A stretch of 62,674 bases of DNA from Clostridia bacterium. Its GTDB lineage: Bacteria; Bacillota; Clostridia; Christensenellales; Aristaeellaceae. Under the pieces are notes generated by a model that saw nothing but the letters and a program-made list of their open reading frames with translations, ran no database searches and was not told the origin of the DNA. Positions 8,780-12,102 of this stretch are shown piece by piece. The stretch spans positions 1-62,674 of the forward strand of contig JAGBDE010000016.1 in the NCBI GenBank assembly GCA_017937655.1. Reading direction: 5' to 3'. Within the stretch, counting starts at the first letter, position 1, and every line of letters begins with the position of its first letter. A program made the position numbers and the translations under genes.

Positions 8780-9691
8780 TCAATATCCCACGGCCTCGTG
8801 GAAGCCCTCGAAGAACTCGGGGCAGCTCCAGGTGCCGCATGCGCTGACACAGTCGTTGTCCGCCGTCAGCTGCAAAACCAGGCCGCTGTTCAGGCCGATC
8901 TGCATGGAGGTGTTGCCGCTCATGCCGGTGGACTGGTACTCGGCGCAGTCAAAGAGGATGCTCATCAGTTCCACGGCATCGCCGCCGCTGACGGTGCCCA
9001 GGCCGGAGATAAAGATCCAGCTCACGTCGTCCGCAGAGCAAAGGGTGTCGGCCAGGGTTTCGCTGCCCAGAGTGGCCTTGCCCGCGTAGCTGATGCGCTG
9101 GAACACGCGCATATTGCCGTCCACAGGGGCTGCCACCATGCCACCGTTCATGTGGCGGACGGCGCAAACCGTTTCACCCTGCCCCACAACGTTGCTGATG
9201 ATATCGCCGGAACCGAGAGCGGGCTCCATGTTGAACTCGCTGACGGTGCCAAGTTCATCGCCCAGAAGGCCGGAAGAAATGCCGTTGGGCGACGTGAGCA
9301 GCCGGTAGGTGGCGCCATCCACGATGATCAGCGGGAAGGTGCTGCCGGTGGCAGGGGCAAAGAGGCTGTCGCTCCGGGAGCTGACGCCGGCGGTCATGTT
9401 CAGGCTTCCGGGAGGCAGATCGCCAATGGCGGGAACCTCGGTGTTCTGCACGCCCGCGGAATGGCTGGTAATGAGGCTATCCGTGACGACCGGTTCCTTG
9501 GGCAGGATCATCAGCCCGCCCACCAGCAAAACCAGTGCCATGGCGCAGGCCAGAACGGGTTTCCAGTAGGTTTTCTGCACGGTTTTCCGCTGGGCTGCCT
9601 CCTGGCGGATCCGGGCCAGCAGCTCCGGCTTTGCCTCCAAACCGCTCAACTGTCGATTTGCAATTTCACCCAATCTTTCAAGCCGTTTCAT
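8780..9691 (-). CDS. Probable anti-sigma factor, single-span membrane protein
   Basis: The 303-residue product starts with a basic/helical cytoplasmic segment (about 1-42), has one transmembrane span (about 45-64), and carries an extracytoplasmic domain of about 240 residues. The domain is rich in Gly, Ser and Val with three Cys near the C-terminus (CVSACGTWSC). It overlaps the ECF sigma gene by four bases (ATGA), the usual coupling of sigma and anti-sigma. I see no zinc-binding HxxxCxxC motif in the cytoplasmic part, so it would be a non-ZAS anti-sigma factor. Role inferred from position and topology. Confidence 0.65.
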   Translation of the reverse strand: MKRLERLGEIANRQLSGLEAKPELLARIRQEAAQRKTVQKTYWKPVLACAMALVLLVGGLMILPKEPVVTDSLITSHSAGVQNTEVPAIGDLPPGSLNMTAGVSSRSDSLFAPATGSTFPLIIVDGATYRLLTSPNGISSGLLGDELGTVSEFNMEPALGSGDIISNVVGQGETVCAVRHMNGGMVAAPVDGNMRVFQRISYAGKATLGSETLADTLCSADDVSWIFISGLGTVSGGDAVELMSILFDCAEYQSTGMSGNTSMQIGLNSGLVLQLTADNDCVSACGTWSCPEFFEGFHEAVGY

Positions 9692-10176
9692 GGATTGACC
9701 TCGCTTTCTTTCAATATCTCCTCCAGCTTTTTGCGCGCCCGGGAAAGGCGGCTGGAGATGGTGCCTTCGGGAAGATCCAGCATCTCGGCAATTTCGTTGA
9801 TGCCATATCCCTGGTAGTAGTAGAGCATGATGGTTTCCCGGAAACTTGCGGGCAGCTGATGAATGGCGGTCATCACCGCTTCCTCGTCCTCCCGGCGTTC
9901 GTGGTCGTCCGGGGCGGGAATCAGTTCAAAGGTGGGACTTCCAAGCACCACCCGCTTCAGCCACGCGCCCCGCCACAAGTCCCTGCAGCGGTTCAGGGCC
10001 ACCTTGAGAAGCCAGGCTTTTTCCCGGCCCTCCTGCAGGTCCGGCGCGTTGGTAATCAGGCGCACAAACACGTCCTGACATACGTCCTCCGCCCGTTGCC
10101 TGTCCCCCAGGTAAAAGTAGCTGACCCTTAAAACGTCGTTGGCATATTTTTCGTAAAGTTCCTCGTAGTTCGTCAT
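9688..10176 (-). CDS. ECF-type RNA polymerase sigma factor
   Basis: A 162-residue group 4 sigma factor. Region 2 spans roughly residues 5-70, with the core-binding helix and RAEDVCQDVFVRLI. Region 4 is about 100-155, with the helix-turn-helix in INEIAEMLDLPEGTISSRLSRARKKL. There is no sigma-1 or sigma-3 region, as expected. It should direct polymerase to a small envelope or stress regulon when released by its membrane partner encoded just downstream. A sigma-A-like promoter precedes it. I did not find an obvious AAC-type ECF -35 of its own. Confidence 0.92.
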   Translation of the reverse strand: MTNYEELYEKYANDVLRVSYFYLGDRQRAEDVCQDVFVRLITNAPDLQEGREKAWLLKVALNRCRDLWRGAWLKRVVLGSPTFELIPAPDDHERREDEEAVMTAIHQLPASFRETIMLYYYQGYGINEIAEMLDLPEGTISSRLSRARKKLEEILKESEVNP

Positions 10177-10354: not shown

Positions 10355-10383
10355 AAAAACCGCCGAAACTGCTTTCGACGGTT
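10355..10383 (-). terminator. Terminator of the zinc-ribbon gene
   Basis: Minus-strand stem AACCG.CGAAA with TTTCG.CGGTT (10358-10368 with 10373-10383, one mismatch), followed by a T-rich tail. Confidence 0.65.
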
Positions 10384-10460: not shown

Positions 10461-10742
10461 TTATTCCTGGTTGCGGTTCTTGGCGAAGCACTCGCTGCAA
10501 TAGATGGGACGATCGGTCTTGGGAACGAAGGGCACCACAGTGGTGGCTCCGCAGATAGCGCAGGTGGTCTCGAAAGACTCACGGGGAGCGGCAGCGCGGT
10601 TGGCCTTACGGGCAGCGCGGCATTCCTTGCAGCGGGTAGGCTCATTCTGGAAGCCCTTCTCGGCATAGAATTCCTGCTCGCCAGCAGTGAATACGAACTC
10701 AGCGCCACAGTCACGGCACTTCAAGGTCTTGTCTTCATACAT
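10461..10742 (-). CDS. Small double zinc-ribbon protein
   Basis: A 93-residue protein with four CxxC pairs: Cys9/12, Cys38/41, Cys61/64 and Cys82/85, enough for two zinc sites. The N-terminal half (LKCRDCGAEFVFTAGEQEFYAEKGF) is the conserved probable zinc-binding (zf-trcl type) domain widespread in Firmicutes. Start chosen at MYEDK because GGAGGG lies 8 bases before it; the in-frame ATG further upstream lacks such a site. Its promoter is about 250 bases upstream, leaving a long structured leader. Likely binds nucleic acid or a redox partner, function unknown. Confidence 0.85.
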   Translation of the reverse strand: MYEDKTLKCRDCGAEFVFTAGEQEFYAEKGFQNEPTRCKECRAARKANRAAAPRESFETTCAICGATTVVPFVPKTDRPIYCSECFAKNRNQE

Positions 10743-10774
10743 AGTGGGTACCCTCCGATTTGTTGATTTGTTTG

Positions 10775-10982
10775 TGCATCTGGCTGACCTGGTCTTTGAC
10801 CCCACACTCGCCGACTGGAAGGCTTGCTCATCGTTTCGTCGCCCTACGCCCCTTCTCTCGCTGCGTGCAGCGGTCGGACTTACATCTAGAACGCGCCATG
10901 CTCACCAGGACTTTTGCCCGGCTTACGTGGACCGTTTTGCCCGCGTCTGGCTTCGGCTTGCAACCACAGACCCAAATGCAGT
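10775..10982 (-). ncRNA. Candidate structured RNA in the zinc-ribbon gene leader (possibly raiA-motif-like)
   Basis: Between the promoter at 10989-11017 and the zinc-ribbon gene lies a GC-rich, non-coding transcript of about 208 nt. Its ends pair: minus-strand TGCATTTGG (10980-10972) with CCAGATGCA (10783-10775), 9 bp with one G-U. Inside I can draw GTGG/CCAC, the hairpin CGCTG-CACG-CAGCG, CCGAC/GTCGG enclosing it, and GAAGG(GG)C/GCCTTC. After the closing helix the RNA becomes A/C-rich and unstructured up to the GGAGGG site. The size and purine-rich junctions recall the raiA-motif RNA of Firmicutes, but I cannot verify that identity. Confidence 0.6.
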
Positions 10983-10988
10983 ATATCA

Positions 10989-11017
10989 ATTATATGCTTT
11001 TTTCCGATAAATGACAA
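10989..11017 (-). promoter_or_regulatory. Promoter of the structured leader and zinc-ribbon gene
   Basis: Minus-strand TTGTCA (11012-11017), 17 bases, perfect TATAAT (10989-10994). Predicted start of transcription near 10982. Confidence 0.75.
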
Positions 11018-11268: not shown

Positions 11269-12102
11269 ATGCAGCATCGCAAAAACGCCGTCCGCATCGG
11301 TGTCATTTTCTCCGTTTTGGTATGCCTTTTCGCCTTCCTTGTGGAGGATGCCGCTTATGCCGCCAGCTTCTTTCCCTCCCAAATCGTGACGGAAACCCGG
11401 CCCAGCGTTCTGTCCCGCTACCAGAACCAAAGCTACACCCGGGGCGTATCCACCACCGGACTGATCATCAAGTTTTCCTTTGTGGAGAATTTCAGCGATT
11501 TCGTCATTGAAAATACTGATTTTGTGAACGTGACTCCCTCAGCCGACCAATATTCCCGCAACCAGGACGGCACCCTGTTTTTGCTCAAGCCGGAATACCT
11601 GGACATCCTCCCCGCGGGAAAATACACCATGACCGCTACCTTTTCCAACGCCCGGCTGGCCGCCAGCTTCTACGTCTTCGACCAAGCCTCCGCCGTGCTG
11701 ATAGAACAGCCCGTTACTGTTTATGCCAACAACGGCGACAACGTTACCTTCTCGGCCGACGTTGCTGTCACCGGCAAAGACGCCGACACCACCGCCAAGG
11801 AGATGGGCATTACCTACCAATGGTACCGTGCCAGCCGCACCGGCAAAAAGAAGGTCCGCGGCGGCGTTTCCCGCATTTTGCAGCTTAACGAAGTTCCAGA
11901 CGAGCTGACCGGCTACACCTACTGGTGCGAAATCAAGGTGCCGGGCTACTCCGCGCCCTTCGTGACCAATCGGGTGAAGCTGTACATCATCGGCGCAGGC
12001 GATTCCTCTAACATATTCTTGTATGGCGTGCTTGCCGCCATGGCGTTGGTCGGTTTGGTATGCTGCATTTTATTGAAAAATCGCTTCCACCATTTTCCAT
12101 GA
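11269..12102 (+). CDS. Surface-anchored protein with Ig-like domain
   Basis: The 277-residue product has a signal peptide (about 1-31), an extracellular region and a C-terminal transmembrane anchor (about 248-269) followed by basic residues. The second half contains a bacterial Ig-like fold: VTFSADVAVTG, ITYQWYRAS and YTYWCEIKVPG show the Trp and Cys positions of that fold. There is no LPxTG motif, so anchoring is by the membrane. The gene stands alone with a perfect terminator. It may be an adhesin or a cell-surface scaffold; nothing points to an enzyme. GGAGGATG precedes the start at good spacing. Confidence 0.65.
   Translation: MQHRKNAVRIGVIFSVLVCLFAFLVEDAAYAASFFPSQIVTETRPSVLSRYQNQSYTRGVSTTGLIIKFSFVENFSDFVIENTDFVNVTPSADQYSRNQDGTLFLLKPEYLDILPAGKYTMTATFSNARLAASFYVFDQASAVLIEQPVTVYANNGDNVTFSADVAVTGKDADTTAKEMGITYQWYRASRTGKKKVRGGVSRILQLNEVPDELTGYTYWCEIKVPGYSAPFVTNRVKLYIIGAGDSSNIFLYGVLAAMALVGLVCCILLKNRFHHFP

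Follow-up and report, generated by a model that had tools for sequence, protein, structure and literature searches.

A complete raiA RNA followed by a small zinc-finger gene in a genome of the Clostridia

The raiA RNA, also called ModT, has been described in Clostridium acetobutylicum and Clostridioides difficile as an RNA of about 210 nt (PMC11706538, PMC11751092). According to PMC11706538, the RNA is, elsewhere in the Clostridia, very abundant in growing cells, drops upon entry into stationary phase, and is required for timely transition and sporulation. Its structure has been solved, and cryo-EM shows a pseudoknot of seven pairs, pk-1 (PMC11751092). In published loci it mostly neighbours comFC (74%) and the raiA/hpf gene (66%) (PMC11706538), and hundreds of bases often separate it from the next ORF (PMC11477304).

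Here, a stretch of 62,674 nt from a Clostridia bacterium (the window) was analysed. It carries an RNA that resembles the raiA/ModT RNAs of C. acetobutylicum and C. difficile by its full-length match to the family model, its closing stem, its conserved single-stranded segments, the SigA-type promoter placed directly 5′ of it, and its length of 206 nt. Unlike those of the published loci, it has a zinc-finger gene as its next ORF, 32 nt away. The product of this gene resembles the small zinc-finger proteins PF13451/PF23477 (TIGR04272), both domains scoring above their cut-offs. What this analysis adds is the zinc-finger gene behind the raiA RNA; the RNA family is already known, and we do not claim that the linkage is unreported. 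The main texts of four papers on raiA RNA, among them PMC11706538, PMC11751092 and PMC11477304, do not contain the word "zinc"; a listing of this neighbour would most likely stand in Soares et al. 2024 (PNAS) or Weinberg et al. 2017.

The raiA RNA and its transcription unit

Table 1. Features of the raiA locus, in window coordinates
Feature	Position	Strand	Basis
SigA-type (Sigma-70) promoter TTGTCA-17-TATAAT	10989..11017	-	11/12 consensus matches
raiA (ModT) RNA, complete, 206 nt	10775..10980	-	RF03072 match and covariation
A/T-rich spacer, 32 nt, with Shine-Dalgarno site GGAGGG (10756-10751)	10743..10774	-	sequence, scan, relatives
Gene of a 93-aa zinc-finger protein, PF13451 zf_Tbcl + PF23477 zf_Tbcl_2 / TIGR04272, 8 cysteines	10461..10742	-	profile matches
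Terminator-like hairpin with T-rich tail	10358..10383	-	scan; 77 nt 3′ of the zinc-gene stop codon

The first-pass annotation had placed a structured leader 5′ of the zinc gene, and had suggested the raiA motif as a possible identity, with an Rfam scan as the check. When the Rfam covariance models were applied, RF03072 was matched over its whole length (model positions 1-209 of 209) with a score of 179.6 bits, for a gathering cut-off of 101.3 (E = 1.2e-45). This is the sole Rfam match in the window at the gathering threshold, and the assembly has a single copy of the RNA. The element is a full-length raiA RNA, of a known class, and no new class of RNA. The position given to the leader was correct, the RNA running from 10980 to 10775 on the minus strand, as was the promoter TTGTCA-17-TATAAT. 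The two ends said to pair, TGCATTTGG (10980-10972) and CCAGATGCA (10783-10775), turned out to be the closing stem of RF03072, and none of the listed same-strand ORFs spans the RNA, in agreement with the statement that no ORF fills it.

Folding energy was uninformative as a test of structure (z = -0.05, 94 of 200 shuffles folding at least as well), and since it does not set the RNA apart from shuffled sequences, helices alone are insufficient to make the case. The covariation check that the same annotation proposed was carried out on 47 of 48 raiA RNAs, taken both within the genus and among named relatives (L054 was left out as it scored as L052), the Rfam structure being mapped through the window sequence. 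In this alignment 82.2% of the cells were paired, compared to 72.0% in shuffles and 33-45% with slid partners. Changes on both sides were found at 28 of the 57 pairs, with 279 such cells for 103.8 in shuffles. Pairing in the raiA RNA is kept by compensatory change, beyond both the shuffled and the slid controls. Pairing is weak in helices 5, 6 and 11 (52-56% of cells), and in the window RNA itself 50 of the 57 pairs are standard ones. The seven-pair helix that we equate with pk-1, by our own reading of the wording in PMC11751092, is paired at 90.3% in the 47 RNAs and forms six of its seven pairs in the window. The raiA RNAs of one other family (f45; L181, L185-L189) are 335-348 nt long, with an insert of ∼130 nt inside the motif.

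The raiA RNA begins 8 bases 3′ of the promoter. The TATAAT box is invariant in the 16 genus leaders (16/16; row L016 does not reach the -35 region), and promoter boxes were also found 5′ of the raiA RNA in the genus and in named relatives. On the other side, the ATG of the zinc gene, at 10742, lies 32 nt 3′ of the RNA end, with GGAGGG eight bases 5′ of it, and a GGAGG site is kept in the 16 raiA-bearing genomes of the genus. Neither a terminator-like nor a promoter-like site was found in the spacer, by the scan or in the relatives, and its 32 nt leave no room for a second promoter besides the Shine-Dalgarno site.

The hairpin at 10383-10358 is the predicted end of a transcript comprising the raiA RNA and the zinc gene; a terminator-like site within 150 nt 3′ of the zinc-gene stop codon was present in 41 of 48 raiA-zinc-finger loci. 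A strict terminator scan of the 100 nt 3′ of the raiA RNA gave no site in the 20 class loci where the zinc gene comes next, and one in the 32 named raiA-zinc loci, located inside the gene. The same scan gave 5 sites in the 25 class loci where hpf follows without a zinc gene, and 6 in 10 loci where neither follows (the eleventh was too short). This contrast softens when loops of up to 14 nt are allowed (1/20, 7/25 and 7/10, respectively). As terminator-like sites are rare before the zinc gene and common after it, read-through from the raiA promoter is the most likely source of its expression, and a single transcript probably carries both RNA and gene.

The zinc-finger protein is near neutral (15 K+R for 14 D+E, pI 7.5). 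Its AlphaFold model has a mean pLDDT of 87.8 and a pTM of 0.48, and a structure search of the PDB with this model gave no match at E <= 0.001. At the sequence level, LIM and zinc-finger proteins gave weak matches (best E 0.0024), so that neither kind of search yielded a convincingly scoring solved relative of the PF13451/PF23477 protein. A link to the ribosome through a Foldseek row (Methanosarcina ribosome) was discarded, as its E value was 0.94 and a literature search found nothing relevant among the papers listed. Among the 15 papers listed, of 166 matched in a further literature search, none contains the name PF13451, and no tested function was found there.

Other genes lie close by in the window. 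A 277-aa ORF (11269-12102, plus strand), divergent from the raiA promoter, has no Pfam or NCBIfam match. An ECF sigma factor gene (9688-10176) is overlapped by a 303-aa ORF, both within 8780-10176 on the minus strand; the latter has no Pfam match and could be an anti-sigma partner.

Genes found behind raiA RNAs

In the genus, raiA was found in 16 of 17 genomes, and a same-strand zinc gene follows in all 16 carriers. Among the best 80 homologues of the zinc gene from named genomes, a full raiA RNA lies 29-47 nt upstream in 32, and one more named locus (L019) is cut inside the RNA; no raiA RNA was found near the other 47 in the flanking DNA available. The named carriers include Candidatus Aphodomonas merdavium and Candidatus Onthenecus intestinigallinarum (Eubacteriales incertae sedis). 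For the family, 150 genomes were drawn, and yielded 124 full-length raiA RNAs above the cut-off, in 123 genomes. PF13451 was matched 34-72 nt downstream of 97 of them, the start codon being about 6 nt nearer. Reading of the remaining 27 added 4 linked cases (G071, G118, G034 and G049) and 19 RNAs without a zinc gene, and 4 RNAs at contig ends (G146, G116, G060 and G032) were left out as undecided. Altogether, the zinc gene stands behind 101 of the 120 assessable raiA RNAs of the family. In other members the RNA precedes a terminator, or a gene recognised by eye as phosphatase-like or RsmH-like. In genera g6 and g47 (L107, L108, L109, L123, L131, L133), the start of a HAD-type phosphatase-like ORF was noticed by eye behind raiA, where the zinc gene would otherwise stand.

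At the level of the class, raiA was present in 57 of 291 genomes. For the 56 RNAs besides that of the window, neighbours were read over ∼1.5 kb or as far as the contig reached: 20 (in five further families) are followed first by the zinc gene, hpf follows on the same strand without a zinc gene in 25, and neither was found in 11, one of which is cut at a contig end. The gap between raiA RNA and zinc gene is about 28-66 nt in the family and 37-39 nt in four other families. It reaches 113-121 nt in the fifth, f24 (in L157 the zinc gene starts at 121, another ATG hit being false). A recurring AGAAC...GTTCT-like element was seen by eye in the f24 gap (L151-L155, L159, L166, L171).

In the assembly of the window, the raiA RNA is on contig C6, a comF-like gene on C37 and the single hpf on C52, so that the usual raiA neighbourhood is absent in this genome; the comF-like gene, the best one of the assembly, scores below the comF cut-off. 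An ORF clustering with the comF-like locus of the window genome was found in 11 of the 32 named zinc-linked loci, and hpf lies further on in 12 of the 20 class loci where the zinc gene comes first. One locus, L182, which belongs to the same order as the window, has a comF-like gene, the raiA RNA, the zinc gene and hpf consecutively. The simplest history would start from an ancestral cluster of the order comFC-raiA RNA-zinc gene-hpf; the line of the window would have lost hpf and then comFC from it, and kept RNA and zinc gene side by side.

Two types of zinc finger in the family

Family copies of the zinc finger, here the matches listed with lower-scoring ones read in some genomes including that of the window, fall into two types: type A, the raiA-linked copies, with a G before EQ, and type B, the unlinked copies, mostly with an S at this place. 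This single letter was abandoned as the mark of a type, owing to one unlinked copy with a G (G130), which the tree groups with the unlinked ones. The tree was built with 39 of 41 linked copies, all 4 doubtful ones and 64 of 65 unlinked copies (a separate protein alignment used 38 of 40, without L049 and without L081, which has a stop codon in the range). Upon midpoint rooting, the 39 linked copies fell on one side and the 64 unlinked ones on the other, none being misplaced (supports 0.97 and 0.92).

Among the 71 copies read that do not stand behind a full raiA match, 65 were type B or B-like, 2 were odd or unreadable and 4 were type A. Two of these four (that of G119 and the second one of G118) stand behind the 3′ part of a raiA RNA truncated at the end of the contig, and that of G152 lies at a contig end and could not be judged. 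The last one, in G086, stands behind a relic (L222, about 190-368) in which the promoter, the spacer, both RNA ends and the zinc gene are kept, the inside of the RNA being mostly missing; Rfam did not detect it at E <= 0.01. G086 may be regarded as a natural case of loss of the RNA, in which the zinc gene outlives it. Among the copies read in the family, type A was met only behind raiA, be it intact, cut by a contig end or, once, decayed, G152 being undecidable.

Among the matches listed, 17 of the 19 genomes with an unlinked raiA have type B alone, and the other 2 have no PF13451. As for the 25 family genomes without raiA, 11 have no PF13451 and 12 no type A among the copies read, the two others being G086 and G152; the one raiA-less member of the genus has type B only. 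Incomplete drafts can lose neighbours together, which makes the tree and the relic stronger evidence than these absences. Four flags of "raiA-like" sequence beside the second paralogue were due to a loose pattern, and were dismissed since Rfam found no raiA in 20 such loci.

Mode of action and role of the zinc-finger gene

It is highly probable, in our view, that the window carries a complete raiA RNA which has its own SigA-type promoter, forms one transcript with the zinc gene and acts in trans, and which likely is no riboswitch. Transcription would start at the promoter directly 5′ of the RNA, and RNA polymerase would read through into the zinc gene. Trimming or cleavage of the transcript in the A/T-rich spacer would then leave an RNA end protected by the closing stem and the compact fold, and the zinc protein would be made in step with the raiA RNA, the latter acting in trans as a stable, compactly folded molecule. 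We infer the read-through, the processing and the 206-nt species from the sequence, and the abundance and the role in growth transition and sporulation would be carried over from other Clostridia. The RNA does not need the zinc gene, as 19 of 120 family RNAs are without it.

The first-pass annotation had also proposed a riboswitch-like element for the zinc protein, that is, a leader acting in cis which responds to a ligand such as zinc and thereby controls that gene. The short same-strand spacing, in the family and in four others, and the lack of a terminator between RNA and gene would suit it, Rfam files RF03072 as cis-regulatory, riboswitch, which counts against an RNA acting in trans, and DMS data of raiA RNA change between growth phases (PMC11706538). 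The terminator scan and the fold prediction nevertheless found no expression platform at the locus, neither terminator/anti-terminator nor hidden Shine-Dalgarno site: openness of the latter is 0.49 both with and without the raiA fold imposed, under a constraint that lost some of the pairs. Moreover, the gap is much longer in f24, the same RNA stands elsewhere in the family before other genes or a terminator, or at any rate without the zinc gene, and the authors of PMC11706538 hold that trans complementation in two Clostridia rules a cis-acting riboswitch out. Such control of the zinc gene is not supported, and we regard it as very improbable.

The zinc gene may simply owe its place to capture by a strong promoter, or it may take part in the same growth-transition and ribosome-related process as hpf, which is the neighbour in other families. 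As a passenger, it would be expressed like any gene behind the strong raiA promoter, and shared ancestry would explain the pair. That different genes or none stand behind the RNA across the genera of the family, and zinc gene, hpf, both or neither across the class, favours a passenger; the same zinc-finger type behind raiA in six families, with nearly equal spacing in five, and its staying in place where hpf and the comF-like gene have left the cluster, speak against it. We hold this to be a serious possibility, somewhat short of an even chance. Alternatively, in lineages that keep the pair the two would be dedicated partners, the zinc protein binding the raiA RNA or the same target. The separation of linked and unlinked copies into two halves of the tree points this way, as do the lack of the linked type in the 19 genomes with unlinked raiA (among the matches listed) and in 23 of the 25 without raiA (among the copies read; raiA is decayed in one of the other two, and the second ends with its contig), the raiA-less genus member with the other paralogue only, and the pair being kept where comF-like gene and hpf sit elsewhere. 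Against it, physical linkage alone would lead to joint loss of both, the zinc gene outlives the RNA in G086, and the protein is not basic. An obligate partnership was rejected: in the class, PF13451 is present in 39 of the 57 raiA genomes (18 lack it) and in 124 of the 234 others, and the 16 non-family genomes tested that have the same zinc-finger type were all without raiA, a test that covers 16 of the 47 loci, in drafts of unstated completeness, and that gave no positive match anywhere in the search. Dedicated partnership is unlikely in our eyes, and we would give no better odds to its extended form, a two-part unit made as one transcript, with the raiA RNA or its ribosome-linked target being bound by the zinc protein.

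Found behind raiA in six families, the zinc gene is a concrete candidate for a partner or co-worker of the raiA RNA. If the two-part unit is true, it would name a protein partner for this abundant RNA; if the zinc gene is a passenger only, the locus still argues against reading the RNA as a riboswitch.
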